The notes below the pieces were generated by a model that saw nothing but the letters and a program-made list of their open reading frames with translations, had not been told where the DNA came from and did not search any database. A stretch of DNA of 24,971 nt from IMG/VR virus record IMGVR_UViG_3300032331_001284, positions 1 through 24,971 of that record; one strand, 5' to 3'. Source of the stretch: a virus. Shown here one piece after another: positions 3,713 through 19,856 of this stretch. Each line of letters opens with the position of its first letter. Position 1 is the stretch's first letter. Both the position numbers and the translations under genes were made by a program.

Positions 3713-4861
3713 ATGGCAAAGGCCGCTGCTTCGGCAACCCCTAAGAAAGACCGGCTAGCCCTCATCGAAGAGCTAGCCGCAGAAGTAAACGCAAAGCTAG
3801 GCGGTAGCTTTCTGCTCAAGGGGAGTGAGACTCGTCAAGACGTTCCTCACACCACCACTGGCATTCTCGCTTTCGACCTTGCGCTGGGTGGTGGGTATGC
3901 GGCCAACCAATGGAACGAGATCGTGGGTGAGGAGAGCAGCGGTAAGACCGCTCTCGCCTACCGCATGGTCGCAGCCAACATGGACAAGGACCCCGAGTAC
4001 CTAGCTCTGTGGGTTGCTGCAGAGGAGTACGTCCCCGAGTACGCACAGTCGTTTGGGATTGATCCTGAGCGTCTGTGGGTGGTTGAGTCGAACGAGATGG
4101 AGAAGGTTCTAGACCTCGTCCTCAAGGCCGTTGTGAATCGTGCTGTGGACTGCGTAGTCATTGACTCGCTTCCCGCCCTCGTCACCAACACAGAGGTAGC
4201 CAAGGACATGGGAGAGGCCAGCGTTGCTACTGGCGCACAGATCCTCAGCCGGTTCTTCAAGAAGTGCACGATGGCACAGCGCCGCTCCATGCTCGCTGGC
4301 GAGGACGACCGCCCCTGCACCCTTATCGCCATCAACCAGTGGCGTGACAAGATCGGTGTGATGTTCGGGGACCCCCGTACCACACCCGGTGGGAAGGCCA
4401 AGAACTACTACTTCTTCACCCGCATCGAAGTACGCAGGGACGAGTGGATTCAGGAGCAGAAGAGCAACCTTGACACCCGTGTTGGTCAGACCATCAAGAT
4501 GCGTGTGATCAAGAACAAGACCTATCGCCCCCAGCAAGTCGCACAGGTAGACATGTTCTTTGCAGACTCTCCGGTCTTCGGCATGAAGATGGGGGACTTT
4601 GATACCGTAAAGGACATTGTAAATGTAGCGCTGGCGCTTGAGTTGTTTGAGGGACGCTACAAGTTTGAAGGCGAGCGCATCGCTTCCAACAAGGAGGAAC
4701 TGTATGACGCTGTACGGCAGGATCTTGGCCTACAGCGTAAGCTTGTGGAAGTGGCTCATACCACCATCCTTAGGTCTTCGCCCTCCAGTTCTTTTGTAGA
4801 GCCGTCCGAGGAGCCGAGTCTGGAAGAGTTCGTTGAGGACTTCGCTGAGGTGCTGGAGTGA
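3713..4861 (+). CDS. recA: RecA-like recombinase
   Basis: 382 residues. The start at 3713 is chosen because AAAGGA lies a few bases upstream. A longer frame from 3656 would run into the preceding gene. Walker A is GEESSGKT (72-79), the RecA catalytic Glu region is VAAEEY (around 104), and Walker B ends at D151 (CVVID). The signature NQWRDKIGVMFGDPRTTPGG (208-227) matches bacterial RecA almost position for position and includes the DNA-binding L2 region. Length is near that of host RecA (about 350), with a slightly longer N-terminus and an acidic C-terminal tail that may gate DNA access. The protein drives ATP-dependent strand exchange for phage recombination and repair. It is followed by a micro-ORF and nucleases in an overlapping operon. 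Confidence 0.95.
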   Translation: MAKAAASATPKKDRLALIEELAAEVNAKLGGSFLLKGSETRQDVPHTTTGILAFDLALGGGYAANQWNEIVGEESSGKTALAYRMVAANMDKDPEYLALWVAAEEYVPEYAQSFGIDPERLWVVESNEMEKVLDLVLKAVVNRAVDCVVIDSLPALVTNTEVAKDMGEASVATGAQILSRFFKKCTMAQRRSMLAGEDDRPCTLIAINQWRDKIGVMFGDPRTTPGGKAKNYYFFTRIEVRRDEWIQEQKSNLDTRVGQTIKMRVIKNKTYRPQQVAQVDMFFADSPVFGMKMGDFDTVKDIVNVALALELFEGRYKFEGERIASNKEELYDAVRQDLGLQRKLVEVAHTTILRSSPSSSFVEPSEEPSLEEFVEDFAEVLE

Positions 4862-4944
4862 TTCGCTTTCTACTTGGTGTGGTGGTCGGTTCTCTTCTGC
4901 TATCCATCATATTTGTGTGGATGGAAGACCGGCATACACGATGA
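4858..4944 (+). CDS. 28-residue single-span membrane micro-protein
   Basis: GTG start at 4858 overlaps the recA stop (GTGA), and the TGA stop at 4942-4944 overlaps the next ATG (ATGA). The predicted peptide has about 17 continuous hydrophobic residues (FLLGVVVGSLLLSIIFVW) after a single Arg, then a charged tail, MEDRHTR. This is the shape of a minimal one-span membrane protein. The precise coupling at both ends, identical to junctions throughout this phage, is the main argument that it is translated. Function is unknown. Membrane anchoring of the recombination complex or a lysis or exclusion micro-protein are possibilities only. Confidence 0.62.
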   Translation: MIRFLLGVVVGSLLLSIIFVWMEDRHTR

Positions 4945-5264
4945 GCCGTACTCCAGAGCAGAAGATGAGCGATGCTCAGGAGAAGCGAACTGCCAAGACA
5001 TACGGGGGCACCCTTAACTTCATGAGTGGAGCCGGGTGGATGCGGAAGGCAGATGTCCGCACCCCCGACTTCATGATTGAGAACAAGACGAAGATGAGCA
5101 TCGATGCTAAGAGCTACAGCGTGAAGGCTGTGGAGCTTCGTGATCTCACAAAGCGCGCTAGGTTGGAGGGCCGCGTCCCCCTCTTGCAGTTCGACCTAGG
5201 AGGGCACCGCTACGTGGTGCTGAATGAGACTGACTTCCTAGACATGATTGATGAGGACAAGTGA
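4941..5264 (+). CDS. Holliday junction resolvase-like PD-(D/E)XK nuclease
   Basis: 107 residues from the ATG at 4941, which overlaps the micro-ORF stop (ATGA). The open frame extends upstream into recA, but that start would give an unlikely 90-base overlap. Catalytic residues in order: E14 in the first helix, D38 in KADV, then E47-x-K49, followed by a conserved helix (AVELRDLTKRARLEGRVPLL) and a strand. This order fits the small archaeal/phage resolvase fold, which cuts four-way junctions made by RecA. Position directly after recA supports the role. A general VRR-type or other restriction-like nuclease remains possible. The stop overlaps the next gene's GTG by 4 bases. Confidence 0.78.
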   Translation: MSRTPEQKMSDAQEKRTAKTYGGTLNFMSGAGWMRKADVRTPDFMIENKTKMSIDAKSYSVKAVELRDLTKRARLEGRVPLLQFDLGGHRYVVLNETDFLDMIDEDK

Positions 5265-6136
5265 CGGAACCCACTCCCTGGTACCTGGCTGACTACAAGA
5301 AGCAGTTCAGCGCTAAGAGCCATGAGCGGCTGCTGCCCAAGATTGAGGCAGTCGTATCCCAGCAAATGCTGGAACGAAACTCCCATAGGGACACGCTCCA
5401 TAACCACCCGTCAGAGCTAGCCAAGACTGACTGGTGCCCCCGCGCCACCGTGTACAAGATCACCGACACCACCGTGAGCAACCCCGAGCACAGCAGCCTT
5501 CGCAGGCTGAACGTGTTTGCAGAGGGTAATGCTATTCACAGCAAGTGGCAGAAGTGGATGTGGGACACTGGTTGCTTGGTGGGCAACTGGCGCTGCAACC
5601 TTTGCGACCACGGGTGGATGGCCAAGTCCCCCACCTCCTGCCCCGAGTGCTTAGACTCTGACATCCGGTACCGAGAAGTACCGATCTTCGATGAGGAACA
5701 CATGATCATCGGACACGCAGACGGTGAGTGGGAAGACTCCCAGGGCAGGGCACTCGTTGAGATCAAGAGCGTAGGTCTTGGCACCATCCGCTGGGATGCT
5801 CCAGACCTGTACGAGGGTTACGATAAGGGCGAACTGTCGCTTGATGACCTTTGGAAGCGTATCAAGCGCCCCCTCCTCCCTCACCGCAGGCAGATCAACT
5901 TGTACATGTACTGCAAGAAGATCGACAGTGCGATTGTCATCTATGAGTGGAAGCCTTCGCAAGAGGTCAAAGAGTTCCAACTCAAGTTCGATCCTGCCCT
6001 GGTGGCTCCCATGCTGGCTGGAGCAAAGCTGGTGAAGGAGAGCGTGGAGCAGGGTGTGCTACCCGAGCGTCCCACTGGATACAGGAAGAGCAAGGAGTGC
6101 AGGTTCTGCCCCTACAAGGACGGCTGCTGGTCATGA
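5261..6136 (+). CDS. Cas4/RecB-like Fe-S exonuclease with inserted zinc ribbon
   Basis: 291 residues, GTG start in a GTGA overlap. It shows the PD-(D/E)XK exonuclease order: H93 (GNAIHSKW), D154 (GHADG), E168-x-K170 (EIKS) and Q211 (QINLY). Four cysteines fit the Cas4/AddB-type 4Fe-4S cluster: C59 near the N-terminus and C280, C283 and C289 at the C-terminus (CRFCPYKDGC). A second metal site, CNLC plus CPEC (C112, C115, C127, C130), sits between the His and Asp motifs and looks like an inserted zinc ribbon. The likely activity is single-strand DNA end processing during recombination. No cas genes or repeats are nearby, so this is a phage recombination nuclease and not part of a CRISPR locus. 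Confidence 0.9.
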   Translation: MTEPTPWYLADYKKQFSAKSHERLLPKIEAVVSQQMLERNSHRDTLHNHPSELAKTDWCPRATVYKITDTTVSNPEHSSLRRLNVFAEGNAIHSKWQKWMWDTGCLVGNWRCNLCDHGWMAKSPTSCPECLDSDIRYREVPIFDEEHMIIGHADGEWEDSQGRALVEIKSVGLGTIRWDAPDLYEGYDKGELSLDDLWKRIKRPLLPHRRQINLYMYCKKIDSAIVIYEWKPSQEVKEFQLKFDPALVAPMLAGAKLVKESVEQGVLPERPTGYRKSKECRFCPYKDGCWS

Positions 6137-6420
6137 GGGTGATTAGGAGTGCACCGATCAGTACAGAAGAGTCCGGTGCTATCGAAGAGGCACGGCAGCG
6201 CCGCTTCCACAAAGCCATGGCTTTGAAGGAAGAGCTAGGACTCACCAAGCAGGAACGGTATGAGCTTGCTCAGCTACTTCCTGGAGTAGACAAGGACGAT
6301 GGAGGGTCCTGGAAAGACCTCACCCCCAAGCAGCTTCACGACCTCATCACAATGATGGAGGGCTTTGTTTACATCACCCACATCCTCCAAGAGAGACTTG
6401 ACACGGAAGAAGAAGCATGA
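6133..6420 (+). CDS. Hypothetical small helical protein
   Basis: 95 residues. The ATG at 6133 overlaps the upstream nuclease stop (ATGA). A longer in-frame extension to 5947 lies wholly inside that nuclease and is rejected. The sequence reads as helices rich in Glu, Lys and Leu, with a conserved-looking segment, TKQERYELAQLLPG, then SWKDLTPKQLHDLITMMEG and an aromatic GFVYITHILQER end. No catalytic motif or membrane segment is visible. Proteins of this look are common unknowns in actinophage replication blocks. The function is not known. Confidence 0.8.
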   Translation: MRVIRSAPISTEESGAIEEARQRRFHKAMALKEELGLTKQERYELAQLLPGVDKDDGGSWKDLTPKQLHDLITMMEGFVYITHILQERLDTEEEA

Positions 6421-6626
6421 GTACAGTGGCTTGCTATATGACTACAAGAGAGTGGACCATGAATCAACCTCTATCAGAGGTTGTCGTAGGTGACATCGTG
6501 GATACTGGTGACCGCATCGTGCGTGTTACTGGCCTTCAGGTGACGGATGACCTAGTAACCCTACACTTGCGTGAGGGCACCCCCTACGCTGCGGCCCCAG
6601 ACAACCTGATCGATATCTTCCGATGA
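6417..6626 (+). CDS. Hypothetical small beta-rich protein
   Basis: 69 residues, ATGA overlap with the gene before and with the glycosyltransferase after. Alternative in-frame ATGs occur at residues 8 and 15 (the second gives MNQPLSEV), so the first 14 residues may not be translated. From about residue 21 on it alternates hydrophobic and polar residues around VVVGDIVDTGDRIVRVTG, which suggests a small beta-barrel of the KOW/SH3 kind. Such domains often bind nucleic acid or partner proteins, but no signature residue is visible. It marks the transition from DNA metabolism to the sugar cassette. Confidence 0.72.
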   Translation: MSTVACYMTTREWTMNQPLSEVVVGDIVDTGDRIVRVTGLQVTDDLVTLHLREGTPYAAAPDNLIDIFR

Positions 6627-7423
6627 TCGGCATAGGTATCTCAACTCGTAACAGGCCAGACTCTCTCCAAGCAGCACTCGCCCACTTCAAGGAGTTTCCG
6701 ACAGAGTCAGCCAAGTATGTCGTCATTGACGATAACAGCGACGACGACTCTGCAGAGCAGGTAGTTTTTGAGTGCGGAATCCCTGGCATCATCTATCACA
6801 AGTCCCCCCATAGAATCGGTATCACCGGTAACAAGAACGCTGCATTGTGGGAATTGCGCGATTGCGATCACGTATTCCTTTTTGATGATGACGCTTGGCC
6901 CTCTGCACCCGATTGGGCAGAGAAGTGGATTCGTGCCAACGAGTCAAATGGCGTTGGGCACTCCATCTTCAACCTCACCTCAAGTCACCTCCGTAAGCTG
7001 GACCCCAATATCCAAGCGCTCATGGTGATTGAGCGTGAGTTCGGTCACGGATCAGCAAAGATGCTCTCGTTCTCCAACTGTCTTGGTCCATTGCTGTACT
7101 TCTCCCGTGCATGCCTAGACACCCTTGGTGGGTACCGCCCAGACCCTCCAACCCTGTGGGGGTACGAGCACGCAGCAATGTCACAGCGAGCGTGCTGGGC
7201 AGGGTTTACCCGTAACTGCAAGTATCTCGTACCGGCAATTGCCGACCAGTTGATCTTCAGTGTAGATGCCATGCGGTTCATCAAAGCTCCCCCGCTTGAT
7301 GTGGTACTCACCACCGGCTCTTCCACTACGGAAGCGGAGAAAGCTCAAGGTGGGCTTAACTCCGTCCTCATGCAGGACACTGCTGTTTACTACCCGCTGG
7401 AGAAGCCGACATGGCTCATGTGA
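6623..7423 (+). CDS. GT2-family glycosyltransferase (GT-A fold)
   Basis: 266 residues, ATG overlapping the previous stop. The N-terminus has the GT-A nucleotide-sugar fold: first strand IGIGISTRNRP (2-12), acidic turn VIDDNSDDD (34-42), then a DxD-type metal/nucleotide motif LFDDDAWP (87-93). The middle has SFSNCLGPLLYFSRACLDTLGGYRPD, a typical acceptor-side segment before a second acidic/His region (WGYEHAAMSQRA). The enzyme should transfer a sugar from an NDP-sugar donor. Donor and acceptor cannot be read from the sequence. It is the first of five sugar-related genes in a row, so a joint product is likely. Confidence 0.88.
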   Translation: MIGIGISTRNRPDSLQAALAHFKEFPTESAKYVVIDDNSDDDSAEQVVFECGIPGIIYHKSPHRIGITGNKNAALWELRDCDHVFLFDDDAWPSAPDWAEKWIRANESNGVGHSIFNLTSSHLRKLDPNIQALMVIEREFGHGSAKMLSFSNCLGPLLYFSRACLDTLGGYRPDPPTLWGYEHAAMSQRACWAGFTRNCKYLVPAIADQLIFSVDAMRFIKAPPLDVVLTTGSSTTEAEKAQGGLNSVLMQDTAVYYPLEKPTWLM

Positions 7424-8076
7424 TCATCCCCACCAAGTCCAACATGGCTGGACTCTCTGCTCTAGTACCACCCCTTCTCTCAGACCCTTTCGTATCCCTT
7501 CTTACCATCGTTGCTGATGGACCCCAGGCTTACGCTGCTGTCAGCAGTAGCTATCCAGAGCTAGATGTGCTGCAGACCGACCTTGGCGCTGGTATCCATG
7601 CAATGTGGAACCTCGCTATGGAACTCACCCCGGTCGGTCAGCACGTGCTATTCCTCAACGACGATGTACTGGTTACTCCAGACACTGTTCGTGGCCTAGA
7701 GCAGTCCTTGAATGACAATCCAGAACTAGGCATCGTGTGCCCTCAGTACGCACCAGTTCAGGTCCCTCTCCCTTACCAGACAGTGACTGGTACCTGCGGA
7801 GGTAGGTACGACGGCTCCGGTGGACTGGCAGGGTTTTGCATGATGCTGGCCTCCGACCTCTCTCTATCTTGGAGATTCGATGAGAGAATGAAGTGGTGGT
7901 GTGGAGACGACGACGTGCTAAACTGGGTCCGCATTACGCAGGGTAGGCAAGCCGGGATCACTCCCCTAGCCACCTGCTCCAACAACCAATCGTGGACCAT
8001 CAACTACGATCCACCAGCGCATTTCAATGAGATAGTTGCTGAAGACATTCGCATTTACCACAGCAAGACCTACTAA
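7411..8076 (+). CDS. GT2-like glycosyltransferase
   Basis: 221 residues if begun at the ATG 7411, which overlaps the gene before by 13 bases. A GTG at 7420 would give the usual GTGA overlap and start directly at the first strand (VIIPTKS), so the start is uncertain by three codons. The GT-A motif FLNDDVLVTPD (81-91) corresponds to the DxD region, and GGLAGFCMMLASDL plus WWCGDDDVLNW form the acceptor-side and later acidic motifs of GT2 enzymes. It is shorter than the first enzyme and lacks a long C-terminal extension. It probably acts on the same glycan as its neighbours. Confidence 0.85.
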   Translation: MAHVIIPTKSNMAGLSALVPPLLSDPFVSLLTIVADGPQAYAAVSSSYPELDVLQTDLGAGIHAMWNLAMELTPVGQHVLFLNDDVLVTPDTVRGLEQSLNDNPELGIVCPQYAPVQVPLPYQTVTGTCGGRYDGSGGLAGFCMMLASDLSLSWRFDERMKWWCGDDDVLNWVRITQGRQAGITPLATCSNNQSWTINYDPPAHFNEIVAEDIRIYHSKTY

Positions 8077-8085
8077 GGGAGCACA

Positions 8086-8910
8086 ATGAGCAAAGTCATG
8101 GTCACAGGTTCCGGTGGATTCATCGGAAGAGCAGTAGTAGGGGAACTTGCTTTCCGTGGCGTTGAGGTGGTGGAGTTTAACCTCCCCGATCACGACGTGC
8201 AGGATGCTAACGATGTCATCCTCACCTCACAGGGGTGCGACGGGGTGATTCACCTGGCCGGTGTGCTTGGCACTCATGAGCTTTTTGACACACCCCGCGT
8301 CGCAGTGGACGTAAACATCCACGGCAGTCTGAACGTGCTAGAAGCGTGTCGTATTAACGACATGCACTACGTCGGTATCACCATGCCCCAGGTATTCCCC
8401 TCCATCTACACGGCTACAAAGGTCGCCACCACCAAGCTGGCCACTGCCTACCGCCATACCCACGGTGTTCCTGTGTCCCATGTGCGGGCTTTCAACGCCT
8501 TTGGACCCGGTCAAGCGCACGGCCCCGGTCATCCGCAGAAGATCATCCCCACGTTCGCCTACAATGCATGGCATGGCATTCCTGTCCCCGTGTGGGGAGA
8601 CGGCACGCAGGGTGTAGACCTCATCCACACCCATGAGCTTGCCAAGATGCTGGTAGATGCACTCAAGTTTGGTGATGACGAGGTGTTCGACGGCGGTACA
8701 GGCACTCCGTGGACAGTCAACGAAGTTGTCAATGAGGTGTTCCGCATTGTCGACAAGCCGATCAATGTGGAATACCTCCCCATGCGCAGAGGCGAGACAC
8801 CCACCAGCATCGTAGCCACTGGAGAAGGTTGGGATCTCCTTGGCTGGAAGCCGCAGGACATTTCACTCGCTAGCACCGTCCACTGGTACAAGGACTTTGA
8901 ACCCAAGTGA
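8086..8910 (+). CDS. NAD-dependent sugar epimerase/dehydratase (extended SDR)
   Basis: 274 residues. The start has a good Shine-Dalgarno (AAGGGAG) and is separated from the previous gene by 9 bases. The Rossmann glycine motif is TGSGGFIG (7-14), and the acidic strand end is FNLPDHDV. The active-site pair is Y108-x3-K112 (YTATK). The C-terminal segment RRGETPTSIVATGEGWDLLGWKP resembles GalE/UDP-glucuronate epimerase family proteins, which act on NDP-sugars. The usual catalytic Ser/Thr sits in the SIYTATK neighbourhood. The enzyme likely makes or modifies the nucleotide sugar used by the adjacent transferases. It is slightly shorter than typical 300-340-residue family members. Confidence 0.92.
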   Translation: MSKVMVTGSGGFIGRAVVGELAFRGVEVVEFNLPDHDVQDANDVILTSQGCDGVIHLAGVLGTHELFDTPRVAVDVNIHGSLNVLEACRINDMHYVGITMPQVFPSIYTATKVATTKLATAYRHTHGVPVSHVRAFNAFGPGQAHGPGHPQKIIPTFAYNAWHGIPVPVWGDGTQGVDLIHTHELAKMLVDALKFGDDEVFDGGTGTPWTVNEVVNEVFRIVDKPINVEYLPMRRGETPTSIVATGEGWDLLGWKPQDISLASTVHWYKDFEPK

Positions 8911-9533
8911 AGATCACAGTGATGCGCTCCGTGTATGGAGCTTACGACAACCCAGTCCCCCTGCCCCCGCAGACTCTAGAGTTTGACGAGATTCTTGTGA
9001 CAGAGAGCAACGCTCCCCGTGCTCACATGCATCCTCGTCTGGCTGCAAAGCACGCAAAGTGCTGTCCTTGGGACTACACAGACGCTGACATGATCGTGTG
9101 GCTGGATGGATCTTTCCACGTCGTCCGTCCAGACTGGCTGGAGTTCATGCGTGATCAGTCTGAGGGTCACCTCATCTCCCAGTACACCCATCCGGTTCGC
9201 GATGATGTGCTCATTGAGGCTGACGTATCTGCCACCATGCTCAAGTACCAGTCGCAGGCAGTGCACGCCCAAGCGAACCACTACCTCAGCCTAGGACATC
9301 CCCGCCACTGGGGCATGTGGTCCACTGGTATCGCGGTGTACCGAATGTATGAACCTGAGCGTCTTCGTGCGTTTGGTAACCACTGGCTAGCAGAGCAGGT
9401 CCGTTGGACATACCAAGATCAGATCTCGCAGCCGCACGTACTCCGACTACACGGTCTTCGCCCCAATCCAATCGAAGGCGACCTGTATAACACTCCGTAC
9501 TTCTTCATGTATGGGCACGCCAGCGAGGCTTGA
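8907..9533 (+). CDS. TOD1/MUCI70-like glycosyltransferase (DUF616-type)
   Basis: 208 residues, GTG start in a GTGA overlap with the epimerase. The order of motifs recalls the DUF616/TOD1 hexosyltransferase-like family: an N-terminal strand with YGAYD, an aspartate motif IVWLDGSFHV (63-72), a THPVRDD loop (94-100) followed by an acidic segment, a WGMWSTGI turn, and a QDQIS segment near the C-terminus. In that family the Asp motif plays the role of the DxD of GT-A enzymes. The clustering with an epimerase and three GT2 enzymes supports a sugar-transfer role. The family assignment is by recall of the motif pattern and was not checked by a search. Confidence 0.78.
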   Translation: MKITVMRSVYGAYDNPVPLPPQTLEFDEILVTESNAPRAHMHPRLAAKHAKCCPWDYTDADMIVWLDGSFHVVRPDWLEFMRDQSEGHLISQYTHPVRDDVLIEADVSATMLKYQSQAVHAQANHYLSLGHPRHWGMWSTGIAVYRMYEPERLRAFGNHWLAEQVRWTYQDQISQPHVLRLHGLRPNPIEGDLYNTPYFFMYGHASEA

Positions 9534-9542
9534 TCATCTCGT

Positions 9543-10136
9543 ATGGACGTAACCGTCGTCATTCCTCACATCCCCGCTAGAGGGGGGTACTTAGCACAGG
9601 CTCTCCAGTCAGTGCGCAGGCAGACAGTGCCTGTTGCTGATGTGGTGGTAGAGCCTGACCTCACTATGGAGGGGGCCTGGGTCACTCGTAACCGAGGCAT
9701 GCTGAAGGTCGACACCTCCTGGACCGCGTTCCTGGATGATGACGATCAGCTACTTCCCCACCACGTAGAGCTACTCACTCACTACGCTTACGAGTTCGAC
9801 CTTGACTTCTGCTGGGGCTGGTATCAGGTGTTTGGTGAGGCTGGCGTAGACCCAATGCCTGAGAACCGTGGCAAGCAGTGGGACCCCGACAGCCCTCACT
9901 GCTTTCCCATCACGGTGTTGGTGAAGACGGAGTTCTTGCATTCCGCATACGAGCATATGGGCGGCTTTCAGCCAGACCCCGACAGCCTTGGTTCGTGGGA
10001 TGTTCAGGACCTTCCAGTGTGGCTTGACATCGTAAAGCGACAGGGTGCCAAGCACATGGCCTTCCCAGAGGCCACGTGGCGTTGGCGGTTCCACGGTCAC
10101 CACTCCTCTGGCTTACCCCTTCCTTGGCTATGGTAA
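9543..10136 (+). CDS. GT2-family glycosyltransferase (short)
   Basis: 197 residues from an ATG nine bases after the previous stop. It has a clear GT-A start, VTVVIPHIPARGGYLAQALQ, and a DxD-type motif AFLDDDDQLLP (62-72), followed by an aromatic stretch (FCWGWYQVFGEAG) and a late acceptor segment (MGGFQPDPDSLGSWDVQD). The C-terminus is cut short relative to common 250-300-residue GT2 enzymes, so it may depend on a partner. The stop overlaps the next ATG (the nuclease at 10130) by 7 bases. Confidence 0.88.
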   Translation: MDVTVVIPHIPARGGYLAQALQSVRRQTVPVADVVVEPDLTMEGAWVTRNRGMLKVDTSWTAFLDDDDQLLPHHVELLTHYAYEFDLDFCWGWYQVFGEAGVDPMPENRGKQWDPDSPHCFPITVLVKTEFLHSAYEHMGGFQPDPDSLGSWDVQDLPVWLDIVKRQGAKHMAFPEATWRWRFHGHHSSGLPLPWLW

Positions 10137-10498
10137 ACCGGGCAAAGCAGAAGGGCACCGACGCTGAGAACAGGGTGCGAGACTACGCCAAGCTGCGTGG
10201 GTGGGCGCACGCCGACCGTCTGACCCTGTCGGGCGTGAACGACCGTGGCGACATCCGTCTTGGTGATGGCATCGACTTCACCTTGGAGGTGAAGGGAGGG
10301 CAGGGGGCGCTGTCGTCTCCCCACTCCCATCTCAGGGAGTTGAAGACAGAGATGTCCAACAACGGACACCGCTTCGGTGCTGTCATCGCTAAGAAGCCAG
10401 GTAGCACACAGGTTGGCGAGGATTGGGTAGCCATGATGCCGGTATCGGTCCTGTTTGACCTGATAAATGTCCTATATGGGAAAGGCACCCCCTCTTAA
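10130..10498 (+). CDS. Second Holliday-junction-resolvase-like PD-(D/E)XK nuclease
   Basis: 122 residues from the ATG at 10130, which overlaps the end of the glycosyltransferase. The upstream in-frame ATG at 10076 is an internal position of that gene. Catalytic layout: E13 in the first helix (GTDAENRVRDYAK), D41 in NDRGDI, and E53-x-K55 (TLEVKGG), with a hydrophobic strand AVIAKK after a helix. This is the same fold class as the protein at 4941 but in a different subfamily. It is the last gene of the transcription unit. The sugar cassette between the two nucleases may have been inserted into an older recombination block. Confidence 0.8.
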   Translation: MVNRAKQKGTDAENRVRDYAKLRGWAHADRLTLSGVNDRGDIRLGDGIDFTLEVKGGQGALSSPHSHLRELKTEMSNNGHRFGAVIAKKPGSTQVGEDWVAMMPVSVLFDLINVLYGKGTPS

Positions 10499-10588: not shown

Positions 10589-10870
10589 ATGTCAGATGAA
10601 GCAGAAGACGTAATTAAGGTGTCTGGTTCCAGCAATCCGCAGAGTGTAGGTTCGATTCTCGCCCGCTCCGTTGTTGCTGGCCATTCTCCAAAGATGCGTG
10701 CCATTGGAGCTAGCGCTGTAAACCAGGCTACAAAGGCAGCCGCTATCGCTCGCGGATTCGTCGCCCCCCGAGGTATTGACCTTCTATTTCTCATTGGGTT
10801 TGATGATGTCCCAGGTGAGAACGGCGGCACCATTTCCAGTATGACATGGAAGCCGGTCGCACGAAGCTAA
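10589..10870 (+). CDS. SpoVS-like (stage V sporulation protein S) family protein
   Basis: 93 residues. It shows the SpoVS core: KVSGSSNPQSVGSILA at the N-terminus, then AIGASAVNQATKAAAIARGFVAP, a nearly word-for-word match to the family pattern. After GIDLLFLIGFDDV, the final strand ends in TWKPVAR. SpoVS is a small Alba-like fold, nucleic-acid-binding candidate that affects sporulation and cell division timing in Bacillus and is found across Actinobacteria and some phages. It lies alone between two extended -10 elements and has a strong ribosome binding site, so it is probably well expressed. Length matches the family (about 86-90). Confidence 0.93.
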   Translation: MSDEAEDVIKVSGSSNPQSVGSILARSVVAGHSPKMRAIGASAVNQATKAAAIARGFVAPRGIDLLFLIGFDDVPGENGGTISSMTWKPVARS

Positions 10871-13023: not shown

Positions 13024-14126
<1,103 letters not shown>

Positions 14127-14129
<3 letters not shown>

Positions 14130-14135
14130 TAGGAT
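14127..14135 (+). promoter_or_regulatory. Possible extended -10 element (TGATAGGAT) near the 69-residue gene
   Basis: TGA-TAGGAT overlaps the upstream stop codon and ends 7 bases before the ATG at 14143. This would place the transcription start at or near the start codon. No good -35 is visible 17-18 bases upstream, and the same AGGA could be a ribosome binding site, so this is ambiguous. Confidence 0.3.
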
Positions 14136-14142
14136 TTCAACT

Positions 14143-14352
14143 ATGGCAGTTAACGAAACACGCAGCATGAACGCAGACCTCCGTGAAGGACTCACTGACG
14201 GAGTGGTAAAGAAGAGCACTCCCGACCGTGGTGGTGTTGTACAGCCGTCCGCGCTCTACGGTCAGCTTCATAGTGGTATCGGACACTATGACACTCTAGT
14301 GTCGGCTGTTGCTAAGGCTGAAATGGCCTTGCGTCAAACCTCTCTGCGCTGA
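14143..14352 (+). CDS. Hypothetical 69-residue protein
   Basis: 69 residues. The first half is charged (RSMNADLREGLTDGVVKKSTPDRGG). The second half is a helix with Leu, Val and Ala (YGQLHSGIGHYDTLVSAVAKAEMALRQTSLR). No motif recognised. It follows the low-complexity protein after a 13-base gap and precedes a candidate promoter. It may belong to the same structural block. Confidence 0.75.
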   Translation: MAVNETRSMNADLREGLTDGVVKKSTPDRGGVVQPSALYGQLHSGIGHYDTLVSAVAKAEMALRQTSLR

Positions 14353-14871: not shown

Positions 14872-15362
14872 TCACCGTTAACTTCGCTGTGCTGGCAAGG
14901 CCAGGTGCTGACTTCGCTCAGCGCATTCCTGATGCAGACGGTCTTCGTTTGTGGAGGACGCTCCACGATCAGAACCTGGGCAGGGTCGCCATTGTCGTTG
15001 ATGACGATGTGCGCAGCGAACTCCTTGAATACTGGCTGAAGTCCCACAGCATTAAAGCTGCAATGTACGAGATTCTGGACTCTACCGACCCTGTCATCAA
15101 GGCAGAGAAGGTGCACCGGATGCTGGGATCGATGGGTCGTCCTAACGACTGGTATGTCGATGTGGACCCACGCACTGCTGCCCAGACACTGGCGCTGGGT
15201 ATCCCTACGCTTCTCATGTCTGTTCCCTATGTGGTGCGCCCAGAGTGGGGTTCCTCTCAGAGGACTGCTAGGCAGTGGGGCGACCTTGTGGATGAGATCG
15301 ACCGTCAAGCCATCATGCGGGCCGAGCGTAACTGGAACGAACCGGAGGACCTGCCCTCATGA
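14868..15362 (+). CDS. Hypothetical protein with a possible HAD-like fold
   Basis: 164 residues. The GTG at 14868 sits in a GTGA overlap and begins directly at a hydrophobic strand (ITVNFAVLARPGADF), so the longer frame from 14799 is rejected. RVAIVVDDDV (around 42) and a later DVDPRTAAQTLALGIPTLLMSVP segment resemble HAD-superfamily core strands and motif IV, but the N-terminal DxDx(T/V) nucleophile motif is not seen. It could be a degenerate or pseudo-phosphatase. The stop overlaps the next ATG (ATGA). Confidence 0.8.
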   Translation: MITVNFAVLARPGADFAQRIPDADGLRLWRTLHDQNLGRVAIVVDDDVRSELLEYWLKSHSIKAAMYEILDSTDPVIKAEKVHRMLGSMGRPNDWYVDVDPRTAAQTLALGIPTLLMSVPYVVRPEWGSSQRTARQWGDLVDEIDRQAIMRAERNWNEPEDLPS

Positions 15363-16807
15363 AGATCGCCATGTCAGGTGGAGAGAAGGGCACCTACAGG
15401 AACATCCTGGTGGAGAATAGCGCCCCCCACATCGCTCTCAACATCACACAGTTCAGCATTCCAAAGCGTAAGGAACTCAATCTCAAAGAGCTTCTTAACA
15501 ACGCTGAAGTGTACGTGTATACATCTGACGAGGACGAGGACGTTCACCGCTTTGACCAGTTCGTTCGTGACTACATCGATCAGATCGATATGGTCATCGG
15601 TCGCCCCGACTACGACGGTACATGGGTGGGGGAGAAGTACGTTCCCCTCTGGAACGACCCTAAGGACGAAGAGCGCCTAGCCCACCTGTGCCAGAAGTAC
15701 GGCAGGGTAGCTATAAGTGATCGCGCCCTTAACCCAAGAACGCTTATGCGCATCAAGCAGCTTCAGCAGCGCTGGGGCTGCACTCTCGTTGCACTCACCA
15801 GCAAGGTCGACATGATCGAAGCGGTGCACTGGGATACGGTCATCGTGTCCTCCTGGACCTCCGTGGTCAGGTACGGAGAGACTCAGGTGTGGGACGGTCA
15901 TGGGCTGCGTCGCTACCCTGCTCAGAAGAAGGAGAGCAGTCGCAAGAAGCATCGTGCCGATATCGTTCGATTGGGTATCGACTTCGACTCAGTGATTGAA
16001 GACGACGTAAAAGAGGTAGCCAAACTGGCTGTACTCTCCTGGCAAGAGTGGGAGAAAAGCACCTTTGGCACCTCCACTTTTGCGGCCTATCACCCCTCCG
16101 AGGGGGAGGACGAGTACGAGTTTGAAGGCCCCACTAAGGGTGAGGTAGTTGATATCTCCCACCTTATGCCACCTAAGACAAACACGTCGAATGGGCAGTC
16201 TCTTATTGATATCCAACGTCGCTCCCAGAGCGGCGAAAACGGCAAGGAATTGCTACCGGTTATCGGCATGGAAACGGTCATTTCAGTGGGTACTCACGAC
16301 ACCACTGACGGTGAGGATTCCTTTGAAATTAACCCTCAGCGTGAACAAGTGGTCCGTTACAAGACCTCTGGAATCCGCTCATGCGATAATTGCTATCTAG
16401 CTCCCCGCTGCCCTCGTTTTGAGGAACATACAGAATGTGCGTTTGAGTTGCCTGTGGAACTCAAGACCAAGGAACAACTTCGTTCTGTGTTGCGGGCCAT
16501 GCTGGAGATGCAGACCAGCCGAATCCTCTTCGCCTCTTTCGCTGAGCAGCTTGAAGGTCAGGGCATGGACCCGGTCCTGTCGAAGGAGATGGACAGGCTC
16601 TTTGAGCTTACACAGCGCTTCAAGGACATTGAAGACACACGGGACTTGGTCAGGTTTGAGGTCGAAGCGAGGGCTGGCGCAGGAGTGCTGAGCCGCATCT
16701 TTGGTGACCGAGCAGCGGAGAAGGTCAACCAGTTGTCCGATCCACTACCGCAGGCTGCTCTGGACCAACTCATCCTTGACGCACAGGTCATTGACCCACC
16801 TGAGTGA
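15359..16807 (+). CDS. Hypothetical protein, 482 residues, with C-terminal Cys cluster and coiled-coil region
   Basis: ATG in an ATGA overlap. The first 200 residues form a likely alpha/beta domain. Residues 30-80 include VYVYTSDEDEDVHRF, and residues 158-185 (DTVIVSSWTSVVRYGETQVWDG) look like a conserved strand-turn. The middle (about 200-320) is polar. A Cys cluster CDNC, C, C (CDNCYLAPRCPRFEEHTEC) lies near residue 345. The remaining C-terminus is helical (SVLRAMLEMQTSRILFASF, ELTQRFKDIEDTRDLVRF), suggesting a coiled coil. No known domain is claimed. It is the longest unknown gene in the window and closes a three-gene coupled set. Confidence 0.88.
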   Translation: MKIAMSGGEKGTYRNILVENSAPHIALNITQFSIPKRKELNLKELLNNAEVYVYTSDEDEDVHRFDQFVRDYIDQIDMVIGRPDYDGTWVGEKYVPLWNDPKDEERLAHLCQKYGRVAISDRALNPRTLMRIKQLQQRWGCTLVALTSKVDMIEAVHWDTVIVSSWTSVVRYGETQVWDGHGLRRYPAQKKESSRKKHRADIVRLGIDFDSVIEDDVKEVAKLAVLSWQEWEKSTFGTSTFAAYHPSEGEDEYEFEGPTKGEVVDISHLMPPKTNTSNGQSLIDIQRRSQSGENGKELLPVIGMETVISVGTHDTTDGEDSFEINPQREQVVRYKTSGIRSCDNCYLAPRCPRFEEHTECAFELPVELKTKEQLRSVLRAMLEMQTSRILFASFAEQLEGQGMDPVLSKEMDRLFELTQRFKDIEDTRDLVRFEVEARAGAGVLSRIFGDRAAEKVNQLSDPLPQAALDQLILDAQVIDPPE

Positions 16808-16826: not shown

Positions 16827-17150
16827 ATGCAAGAATCCACAAAAGACCAAGTGCCTTACAAGTCCAATGAGATCAGCAACAGGCGTGACCTCCTCAACGA
16901 GGCTGCAGAGCTAGTTGATGGTGACCGCAACGTGCAGTACGGAGATCCTATTGAGGACTTCAAGCGCACCGCTGACATGTGGAACGCGTACCTTGGTACC
17001 ACCGACCTCAAGCCACACGATGTGGCGGCGCTGATCGCAATGGTCAAGCTGAGTCGTATCAGGTGGTCCCCCACCAAGCGTGATCACTGGGCAGACCTCG
17101 CTGGTTACGCAGCATGTGGCTGGGACTGCGTGAAACGGGAAGACAAGTGA
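16827..17150 (+). CDS. DUF6378-like protein
   Basis: 107 residues. ISNRRDLLNEAAELVDGDRNVQYGDP, then DFKRTADMWNAYLG, DVAALIAMVKLSRI and HWADLAGYAACG form the motif pattern of the DUF6378 family, which is common in phages and has no defined activity. It resembles the all-helical MazG-like nucleotide-handling proteins, but the acidic cluster of those is not clearly present. The gene appears to start at a leaderless promoter. The GTGA overlap at its stop connects it to the HD hydrolase, and a shared role in nucleotide handling is plausible. Confidence 0.82.
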   Translation: MQESTKDQVPYKSNEISNRRDLLNEAAELVDGDRNVQYGDPIEDFKRTADMWNAYLGTTDLKPHDVAALIAMVKLSRIRWSPTKRDHWADLAGYAACGWDCVKREDK

Positions 17151-17719
17151 GCAGCCACCCCTCAGTGTCTACGTCGCTCCTTCTGGACGCGGTCAGCACC
17201 AACACCGCTATCTCCACCTACAACGGTCACGCCTTCGACATCTACGACCCTTCATCGTGGGTGTTCGACATCGATGAGATCGCTCAGGCTCTCTCCAACA
17301 CATGCCGCTTCGGGGGACACGTTGAGTTCTATTCCGTTGCCGAGCATTGCTGCCGAGTGGCCACCCTACTGCGGTCGCAGGGCTTCTCTGAGCGTGTGCA
17401 GTTAATCGGACTGCTGCACGATGCCATCGAAGCTTACATCGGTGATATCCCGCGCCCCATCAAGCAGACCATGACCCTCAACGACGAGAGCATCCTGGAC
17501 CTGGAGAAGGGCATGGAGTACGCACTGTTCGGTTCGTTTGGACTGCTTTCAGACAACTTCAACTCTGAATGGGCCTCTATCAAGCGGGCTGCCTTCTCCA
17601 TTTACGAGAAGGAACGCGAAGAGCGGCCGAAGGTCGGCATGGGTATGCTCCCCGCCGCAGCGAAGCGTGCGTGGCTACAGCACTTCCTTCACCTTACTGA
17701 ATACTCACAGATGGGCTAA
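17147..17719 (+). CDS. HD-domain phosphohydrolase (5'-deoxynucleotidase YfbR-like)
   Basis: 190 residues from the GTG at 17147 (GTGA overlap). The HD signature is present: H67 (SVAEHCCRVA), then the H91-D92 pair (LLHDAIEAYIGDIPRPIK), with the E/Y segment and D100 close by. The pattern with GDIPRPIK after the HD pair matches the YfbR/HDDC2 family of deoxynucleoside monophosphatases. Such enzymes remove nucleotides or supply nucleosides. In phages they may assist base replacement or dNTP pool control. The stop overlaps the ATG of the WhiB gene (TAATG). Confidence 0.85.
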   Translation: MSSHPSVSTSLLLDAVSTNTAISTYNGHAFDIYDPSSWVFDIDEIAQALSNTCRFGGHVEFYSVAEHCCRVATLLRSQGFSERVQLIGLLHDAIEAYIGDIPRPIKQTMTLNDESILDLEKGMEYALFGSFGLLSDNFNSEWASIKRAAFSIYEKEREERPKVGMGMLPAAAKRAWLQHFLHLTEYSQMG

Positions 17720-18069
17720 TGGACAGTTGGCGGGTTGGCGCAGCGTGTAAGGACAAGCACCACGACCTCTTGTTCCCTCCGTTCTCCGATGAACGGAGTG
17801 TGCCAGAACACCGCTACTACGACATGGGCAAGATGCTGTGCGAGCACTGTCCAGTAAGACGTAAGTGCGCTGAGGCAGGCCAGGAAGAGGAGTGGGGTCT
17901 GTGGGGTGGACGCACCCCTTCCGAGCGTGCGTTTGGAGAACCGTTCACGCCCCCGCCCTTTAAGCTCATTCCAAGGTATATGGATAAGATTCCAAACCAC
18001 ACCTCAGAGCGCTTGGACATTGTTGCTGCGTGGACAGAGGTCCGCAGGTTCTCTGACAAGCGTGAGTGA
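17719..18069 (+). CDS. WhiB-family transcriptional regulator (first copy)
   Basis: 116 residues. Four cysteines bind the 4Fe-4S cluster: C10 (GAACKD), C41, C44 and C50 (CEHCPVRRKC). The G-[IVLM]-W-G-G motif appears as EWGLWGGRTPSER (58-70). WhiB proteins bind host sigma factor region 4 and act as redox-responsive transcription regulators in Actinobacteria. The 45-residue C-terminal extension is basic/Pro-rich and could contact DNA. It is coupled to the HD hydrolase and followed by a promoter that drives the second WhiB, so the two may be controlled separately. Confidence 0.95.
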   Translation: MDSWRVGAACKDKHHDLLFPPFSDERSVPEHRYYDMGKMLCEHCPVRRKCAEAGQEEEWGLWGGRTPSERAFGEPFTPPPFKLIPRYMDKIPNHTSERLDIVAAWTEVRRFSDKRE

Positions 18070-18079
18070 GAAGTAATAC

Positions 18080-18109
18080 TTGCTTTCTTCCTCTTCTAGC
18101 GAGTATCCT
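18080..18109 (+). promoter_or_regulatory. Leaderless promoter TTGCTT-N18-TATCCT for second WhiB
   Basis: -35 TTGCTT (18080-18085), 18-base spacer, -10 TATCCT (18104-18109), then 6 bases to the ATG at 18116. The 46-base gap between the two WhiB genes has no Shine-Dalgarno near the ATG, and the predicted transcription start coincides with the start codon. Same geometry as 16791-16820. Confidence 0.65.
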
Positions 18110-18115
18110 CCTGGC

Positions 18116-18457
18116 ATGATCGATTTCAGCAAGATTCAAGAAGACGAGTTCACTGAGGACGCGGAACAGGTCGTTGCCCCCGACGACCTGTTCCGTATCG
18201 CTCTGCCAATCCTCAAGGTGGTTGAAGCGGACCCGTCCTGGCGCTTGGAGAGCCTGTGCCTCTCGCACCCCGATGTGGACTTCTTCGATGGCTTCCAGAA
18301 GAAGCAGGCAAAGGCCATCTGCGGTCAGTGCGCGGTTAGCGAGCGCTGCCTCCAGTTCGCCATGGAGAACAATGAAGAGGCCGGTGTGTGGGGCGGCTTG
18401 GACGACCACGAACGTAAGGCACTTAAGGGCAAGGCCCCCAGGAAGCGATACCGCTGA
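18116..18457 (+). CDS. WhiB-family transcriptional regulator (second copy)
   Basis: 113 residues. The four cluster cysteines are C48 (ESLCLS), C69, C72 and C78 (ICGQCAVSERC), with the turn motif GVWGGLDDHER (90-100) and a basic C-terminus (KGKAPRKRYR). It has a 35-residue acidic N-terminal extension not present in the first copy. The two are clearly different proteins and not a recent duplication. It probably acts with host sigma factor or competes with a host WhiB. The ATG lies 6 bases after a -10 hexamer, so a leaderless transcript is predicted. Confidence 0.96.
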   Translation: MIDFSKIQEDEFTEDAEQVVAPDDLFRIALPILKVVEADPSWRLESLCLSHPDVDFFDGFQKKQAKAICGQCAVSERCLQFAMENNEEAGVWGGLDDHERKALKGKAPRKRYR

Positions 18458-18707: not shown

Positions 18708-18786
18708 AGTACTACGAATGATCAAGTGTCTATTGCACGAACTCAAGATGCGGGTGTACCAGTGGTGGTACAGGTGGAACCGATGA
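18697..18786 (+). CDS. Candidate 29-residue cationic, tryptophan-rich micro-protein
   Basis: ATG at 18697 overlaps the coiled-coil gene's end by 11 bases. The TGA at 18784-18786 overlaps the next ATG (ATGA). The peptide starts MRIEVLRMIKCLLHELKMR and ends VYQWWYRWNR. It is basic, amphipathic and Trp-rich, which recalls membrane-active or membrane-peripheral micro-proteins. An alternative start at 18718 would give 22 residues. The ribosome binding site is weak for both, so coupling to the upstream gene is assumed. Confidence 0.45.
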   Translation: MRIEVLRMIKCLLHELKMRVYQWWYRWNR

Positions 18787-19856
18787 AGATCGGTATAGCG
18801 AGCGCGGACTACCTGCGTGCAGACAAGAATCCCGATGGTACAGAAGCCTGGGGCGGCTCTGGGTGGGCGCGTGTCGGTCAGTACATCGACTACTACCGTG
18901 CAGCAGGCCACGAAGTGGCTGCGGGTGTGTTATGGCAGCGCGACGGCAGGTTCTACATCGAACGCGCCGACCTGAGCGTGTTGGAGCCTGACATCATCAT
19001 CATGCAGAGGCTGATGCACGATGGCATCGCTGCCACCATCAAGACTGCCAAAGCCGGTGGTCAGGTCATCATTAACGACCTTGATGACTGGTACTGGGGA
19101 CTGGACCCAAGCAACCTTGCTTTCAACGCATCGCACCCCAAGAACAGTCCCACCGAGAACACCAACTTCTATGCCAGCGTGCTTTCGTCCTCTAGTGTGC
19201 TTACCGTTAGCACCCCATACCTCGCGGAACGTATGCGCAACCGCGTAAAGTGCCCCGTCGTCGTCATTCCAAATTACATCGATGTCAACCGCTTCACACC
19301 AGTGCAGCAGTCACTTGGTACTCCCACCTTTGGGTGGGCGGGGTCCACTGGTCACCGTAGTGGCGACCTTGAGACAGTCGCTGGCGTACTACGCCGCCCC
19401 ATTACGGATAAGACGATCAACTTCCAGCACTCTGGAGAGCACCCCTCTGGAACTCCCATGCACGAACTGTTGGGAGTACCCAAGGTATCGGTAGCCACAC
19501 TGCCCCTTACCATTGCGCAGAACTACCCTTCACTGCTCAACTTTGATGTTGGCATCGTTCCTCTGCGTGATACGCCATTCAACATGGCCAAGAGCGATAT
19601 CAAGGGACTTGAGTACTCAGCTTCCGGTATCCCATTCATCGCTCAAGACCTACCGAGTTACAAGCAACTCCACAAGGAGTGGAACGGCGCATTCTGGCTG
19701 GCAGACCGTCCCAAGGACTGGGTCACCGGCATGAAGAAAATGATGGACTATTCCTATAGATGCGAACGCCAGCAAGAGCTTCTGGAGCTTGTGAAAGGTC
19801 GTGACATCGCCTATGGTGCGGGCGAGTGGCTTGACTTCCTTGACAGCGTCAAGTAG
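18783..19856 (+). CDS. GT-B glycosyltransferase (GT4-like)
   Basis: 357 residues from the ATG at 18783, which overlaps the micro-ORF stop. The longer frame from 18726 is rejected because it starts within the micro-ORF. The N-terminal domain carries a Gly-rich acceptor loop (GGSGWARVGQY, 24-34) and a stretch with IINDLDDWYWG (96-106). The second half has STPYLAERM (143-151), IPNYIDVNRF (162-171), and the donor-site pattern DVGIVPLRDTPFNMAKSDIK (255-274), then GLEYSASGIPFIA (275-287). This is the GT4-type E-x7-G layout of GT-B enzymes. It is separated from the other sugar genes by 8 kb but could act in the same glycan path. Confidence 0.86.
   Translation: MKIGIASADYLRADKNPDGTEAWGGSGWARVGQYIDYYRAAGHEVAAGVLWQRDGRFYIERADLSVLEPDIIIMQRLMHDGIAATIKTAKAGGQVIINDLDDWYWGLDPSNLAFNASHPKNSPTENTNFYASVLSSSSVLTVSTPYLAERMRNRVKCPVVVIPNYIDVNRFTPVQQSLGTPTFGWAGSTGHRSGDLETVAGVLRRPITDKTINFQHSGEHPSGTPMHELLGVPKVSVATLPLTIAQNYPSLLNFDVGIVPLRDTPFNMAKSDIKGLEYSASGIPFIAQDLPSYKQLHKEWNGAFWLADRPKDWVTGMKKMMDYSYRCERQQELLELVKGRDIAYGAGEWLDFLDSVK

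Follow-up and report, generated by a model that had tools for sequence, protein, structure and literature searches.

Four of five tightly packed genes in an actinophage-like genome fragment form a recurrent unit, GT2-EPI-TOD-GT5, which by homology and gene order is conserved as a mobile module across unrelated phages. The best explanation of the cassette is that it probably encodes soluble enzymes building a short glycan on a virion protein. Phage virion glycosylation is a known kind of system; what is new here is a distinct and widespread module. To our knowledge, no more than a few phages have been demonstrated to glycosylate their virions. A module of fixed order, recognizable by the marker pair of a TOD1/DUF616 gene beside a distinctive epimerase gene, would allow phages and prophages that glycosylate their particles to be predicted, and would permit direct tests of target, sugar and benefit.

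The cassette and its enzymes

The window, meaning the whole stretch of DNA analysed, is the entire 24,971-base IMG/VR record IMGVR_UViG_3300032331_001284. The genome is incomplete in this record, the window holds no structural genes, and its gene set is actinophage-like, with PolA, a UvsX/RecA-like recombinase, two Holliday junction resolvases, a Cas4-type exonuclease and two WhiB-like genes. The features of the cassette and of the edges of its site are the following.

4833-5264: Holliday junction (HJ) resolvase (phrog_2002, 3.5e-20)
5261-6136, + strand: Cas4-type exonuclease, part of the conserved backbone to the left of the site (phrog_2506, 1.9e-31)
6417-6626, + strand: small gene of unknown function, left border of the cargo site (a homologue is retained in the closest relative, L009)
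6623-7423, + strand: GT1, GT2-type glycosyltransferase, 266 aa (PF00535, 5.8e-9; phrog_2456, 6.5e-33)
7411-8076, + strand: GT2, divergent GT2-like glycosyltransferase, 221 aa (PF00535, 0.046 alone)
8086-8910, + strand: EPI, putative extended-SDR nucleotide-sugar epimerase/dehydratase (PF01370, 2.3e-30; phrog_540, 1.9e-46)
8907-9533, + strand: TOD, predicted TOD1/MUCI70 (DUF616) glycosyltransferase-like protein of GT-A fold, 208 aa (PF04765, E 0.065 alone; homologues; model)
9543-10136, + strand: GT5, GT2-type glycosyltransferase (PF00535, 5.2e-7; phrog_14775, 1.9e-24)
10130-10498, + strand: RusA-like Holliday junction resolvase, forming the right border of the cargo site (phrog_244, 8e-18)

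The preliminary description had placed five genes in tight overlap at 6623-10136. All are present as ORFs on the + strand, in the order GT1, GT2, EPI, TOD, GT5, with neighbours overlapping or at most 9 bases apart. The two flanking resolvase-like nucleases are also of the kinds described there, but the upstream one lies 1.4 kb from the cassette, separated from it by the Cas4-type exonuclease gene and two small genes. No membrane segment was found in any cassette protein (maximum Kyte-Doolittle value 1.68). Elsewhere in the window, two adjacent WhiB-like regulator genes (17719-18457) follow an HD-domain 5'-nucleotidase-like gene (17114-17719). We rejected the idea that the polymerase is of the DpoZ/2-aminoadenine type, as its score lies far under the family cut-off.

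Three of the products had been described as GT2-type transferases, which holds for two of them. GT1 and GT5 pass the PF00535 cut-off of 23.3 bits (36.5 and 30.2 bits), and their translations carry the acidic metal-binding motif as FLFDDD and FLDDDD, respectively. The protein GT2 (7411-8076) scores 14.1 bits, and because this lone profile score falls below the cut-off it is named GT2-like only. It belongs to a wide GT2-like family, one member of which, KimJongPhill gp109, does pass (24.6 bits), and the family alignment matches solved GT2 enzymes. GT1 is homologous to the N-terminal half of Mycobacterium phage Mutaforma13 gp102 (31% identity), and GT5 has homologues in Streptomyces phage KimJongPhill (gp107, 38%) and Arthrobacter phage Atuin (gp169, 37%).

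The NAD-dependent epimerase proposed for the third gene is borne out by the PF01370 and phrog_540 matches listed above. EPI keeps the Rossmann motif (TGSGGFIG, fitting GxxGxxG) and the catalytic pair Y108-x3-K112 (YxxxK). Extended SDR enzymes usually place a Ser or Thr about 24 residues ahead of the catalytic Tyr. No such residue occupies this position in the EPI clade, where a Thr lies only 9 residues before the Tyr. The epimerases linked to TOD, that of the window included, share the signature GI(T/S)MPxVFPSxYTATK, which retains the catalytic Tyr and Lys, and the shortening of the SDR active-site loop is conserved across the window protein (8086-8910) and the TOD-linked epimerases. The tree built for 84 epimerases has a 100/99 branch with the TOD-linked, the window and the L009 proteins all on the same side, except for one long-branch row. 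EPI and the L009 epimerase share 67% amino acid identity with a dN/dS of 0.18, compared with 0.13-0.14 for PolA and the exonuclease, at synonymous sites that are near saturation; purifying selection has acted on EPI.

The fourth gene had been described as encoding a TOD1/DUF616-like enzyme. On its own, the window protein scores 13.0 bits against PF04765 (cut-off 21.4 bits). As a lone query against IMG/VR it found no relative, and alignment-based queries were needed. An alignment of nine homologues has 21 invariant positions; PF04765 hits every one of them with E <= 1, down to 5.7e-13, and one member, from locus L201, exceeds the cut-off with 26.9 bits. The AlphaFold model built from this alignment reached a pLDDT of 88 and a pTM of 0.86, whereas a fold from the single sequence was discarded (pLDDT 28). 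In BFVD the model is closest to an Indivirus TOD1/MUCI70 protein (TM 0.85, E 1.5e-17), followed by a Cellulophaga phage glycosyltransferase and then two giant-virus proteins; matches in the PDB are GT-A enzymes such as GT6 transferases, at low TM scores of 0.4-0.58. Profile and predicted structure together indicate that the DUF616 assignment is right.

Among 50,697 phage records, the window protein matched only Synechococcus phage S-SCSM1. Cellulophaga phages, a faecal phage and a marine virus came up with a second TOD query, and identities were 25-30% throughout. The phage protein resembles the plant TOD1/MUCI70 family in the PF04765 match of all nine members and in its GT-A-like fold, and differs in being short (208 aa), soluble and phage-encoded. 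The phage enzyme adds a compact, soluble form to a family otherwise known chiefly from plants and giant viruses. In plants, rhamnogalacturonan galacturonosyltransferase activity is reported for MUCI70/RGGAT1 (PMC10576798), whereas Arabidopsis TOD1 is reported to be an alkaline ceramidase (PMC4309442), so that neither activity nor sugar can be transferred to the phage protein by name. The literature that we searched contained no paper joining DUF616 with phage glycosylation, although other literature may.

An exchangeable site in close relatives

The closest relative, L009, is collinear with the window at 70-83% nucleotide identity. At the cassette site it carries only the epimerase gene and one GT2-type gene, whose product is 35% identical to GT5. 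The presence of this epimerase without TOD suggests that TOD was lost there or is located outside the L009 contig. A RecA-based scan gave 18 further contigs, many of them fragments and several near-duplicates, which amount to about four close lineages. In three of them (L018, L020, L023) the site is empty, the preceding gene overlapping the start of the resolvase gene, and in two others (L012, L016) small ORFs occupy it alone. Across the relatives' records, a match to the GT2 family occurs only in L009 and one distant relative, and the epimerase only in L009. The cassette is accessory, exchangeable cargo between the small gene and the resolvase gene, and is not part of DNA metabolism. Such a site beside a resolvase provides a natural comparison, with and without the cassette, among close relatives.

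Several other genes vary or persist in this group. L029 carries at the site a secreted-looking calcineurin-type metallophosphoesterase with a Thr-rich N-terminus (13257-14180; PF00149, 4.4e-12). L009 has an extra ORF before RecA (5946-6353), LAGLIDADG endonuclease-like by eye, that is absent from the window. The SpoVS-like protein at 10589-10870 of the window (PF04232, 1.3e-18) is 81-86% identical in most close relatives, and its gene is among the best conserved in this group of phages. A separate glycosyltransferase gene (18726-19856; phrog_7162) is common to relatives without the cassette whose contigs reach that far, and in L165 and L185 homologues of it are found at the flanks of TOD modules as well.

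The location of the cassette inside a DNA-metabolism block, pointed out in the preliminary description, is real in the window but particular to this phage, and it reveals little about what the genes do. It might hint at glycosylation of phage DNA, with sugars placed onto a modified base to block host nucleases. The window also holds a queuine tRNA-ribosyltransferase/DpdA-like gene (15359-16807; phrog_887, 9.3e-34), suggestive of base modification, and a thymidylate-synthase-family gene occurs in two of nine TOD-bearing records. However, the site is empty or filled with other cargo in sister phages, and the setting is therefore no evidence for a DNA role. The DpdA-like gene belongs to the core set of those relatives with contigs that extend to it, those without the cassette included; it suggests 7-deazaguanine modification of the phage DNA, which would therefore be independent of the cassette. 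We saw no dCMP/dUMP hydroxymethylase among the window genes, and PF00303 is absent from seven of the nine TOD records, from L009 and from a 68 kb relative (several of these being fragments). As elsewhere the module accompanies head and tail genes, we regard DNA as an unlikely target.

A recurrent four-gene module in other phages

Relatives of the epimerase and of GT5 are numerous in IMG/VR, and TOD was found beside them. A scan with a five-member TOD alignment yielded 57 viral loci and one Streptomyces caniscabiei contig. Of the 56 loci scored, 49 have EPI immediately upstream of TOD and 47 have GT5 within 3.5 kb downstream, with both present in 43 (counts from six-frame searches and PHROG scans, ORF calls at high-GC loci including spurious reverse-strand ORFs). 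Matches to GT2 (7411-8076) were found in 36 module loci. The usual order is GT2-EPI-TOD-(methyltransferase)-GT5-TerL-portal, and the last four genes of the window cassette keep it. EPI and TOD have been co-inherited. By contrast, no match to GT1 was found among the 60 module loci searched; GT1 is therefore best seen as an addition, accessory to the four-gene core. The idea of a self-contained glycan module is upheld by its recurrence in other phages and by the confirmed family, but of the five genes proposed for it only the last four recur together. The preliminary description would have taken a lack of conservation in relatives as refutation; most close relatives do lack the cassette at this site, but it is conserved as a mobile unit in unrelated phages.

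Because homology and gene order are conserved in other phages, we exclude a chance grouping. That unrelated moron genes were assembled with no joint function would fit the variable cargo of the site, including the secreted-looking phosphoesterase of L029; it is nevertheless highly improbable given a four-gene order repeated in dozens of phages, the joint inheritance of EPI and TOD, and purifying selection on EPI.

The surroundings of the module offer a hint about its acceptor. TerL lies within 5 kb downstream in 33 of the 56 TOD loci; these contexts belong largely to one lineage (TerL proteins about 65% identical to each other), from which the TOD scan was also seeded, and independent structural contexts therefore number about three. 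PHROG scans place TerL and portal genes after the module in L149 and L181, and tail genes before it in L185 and L165. In L245 it is surrounded by TerL, portal, head-tail adaptor and tape measure genes, and an adaptor gene is found in L250 too. Directly downstream of 72 GT5 homologues, we counted at least 20 TerL genes, at least 5 portal genes, one major head gene and about 10 further glycosyltransferase genes. Since the module recurs beside head, packaging and tail genes, its neighbourhood in other phages favours virion proteins as the predicted acceptor.

The Streptomyces contig, a chromosomal copy, could instead point at a function in the host, where the cassette would alter surface glycans during infection or lysogeny (serotype conversion or superinfection exclusion). 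Weak profile matches and solved relatives in teichuronic acid, capsule and N-glycan precursor synthesis agree with this possibility. However, TerL and portal genes follow the Streptomyces copy as well, and the module is placed with structural rather than lysogeny genes. O-antigen conversion of the GtrABC type employs a membrane flippase and a membrane-anchored bactoprenol glucosyltransferase. In contrast, the cassette has no GtrA-like gene, no polymerase and no membrane-anchored transferase, and remodelling of the host surface is improbable.

Predicted virion glycosylation and known systems

Glycosylation of phage DNA and of the host envelope are both less likely than that of a virion protein, because the window contains no base-hydroxymethylating enzyme, the thymidylate-synthase-family gene is confined to two of nine TOD records, and neither flippase nor membrane glycosyltransferase accompanies the cassette. 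In the favoured scheme of virion glycosylation, EPI would convert a host NDP-sugar into the donor, and one transferase would place the first sugar, in the cytoplasm, on side chains of an abundant virion protein, possibly the capsid, tail tube or a tail protein. The remaining transferases would then build a short glycan upon it, TOD perhaps adding a galacturonosyl- or hexosyl-type residue, and the product may alter or shield the particle surface. Several points count against this scheme: gene neighbourhood is an indirect guide, drawn from about three independent contexts, in the window phage the module does not lie beside structural genes, and GT1 is not homologous to Che8 gp110.

Two sources (PMC12363180 and PMC11256854, both citing Freeman 2023) describe mycobacteriophage capsid and tail-tube proteins glycosylated by phage-encoded glycosyltransferases, and name Che8, Corndog and Myrna as glycosylating virion proteins with their own enzymes. 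The window resembles these systems as an actinophage-type virus with adjacent soluble glycosyltransferases. Che8 carries three consecutive glycosyltransferase genes (gp108-110), and in contrast to the window cassette no epimerase or TOD1/DUF616 enzyme was seen in that region. No cassette protein matches Che8 gp110, reported to be essential for capsid glycosylation (GT1, phmmer E 9.5). GT1 was rejected as a counterpart of this capsid glycosyltransferase: its cluster F relative is Mutaforma13 gp102, whereas Che8 gp110 matches Mutaforma13 gp105.

A wider proposal, plausible but tentative, is that GT2-EPI-TOD-GT5 represents a phage glycosylation system not described before, which is exchanged horizontally and has an epimerase subfamily of its own, a TOD1/DUF616 transferase and a phage-specific virion glycan. 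Modules and single glycosyltransferases might be swapped at fixed sites, changing the phage surface in a manner comparable to virus serotype variation.

Other phages share parts of this arrangement. The epimerase nearest to EPI in an isolate phage is Microbacterium phage Magritte gp5 (36%), of the same broad family. There, gp5-gp8 comprise the epimerase-like gene and then glycosyltransferases, followed by terminase and portal genes; no TOD is annotated or was detected, and the glycosyltransferases have no detectable homology to those of the window. The glycan block of the cyanomyovirus S-SCSM1 combines a TOD homologue (27%) with two nucleotide-sugar enzymes, but is much larger, includes fucose-pathway genes and follows another order. 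In KimJongPhill (gp107-gp110) and Atuin (gp169-171), gp107 and gp169 are the GT5 homologues, and KimJongPhill gp109 is a remote homologue of GT2 (7411-8076). Both lack an epimerase and TOD, in place of which KimJongPhill carries a methyltransferase and a 2OG-Fe(II) oxygenase. In the latter phage (L007, 3990-6463), the genes for the oxygenase, a glycosyltransferase, the methyltransferase and the GT5 homologue are adjacent, and the oxygenase could hydroxylate residues prior to their glycosylation.
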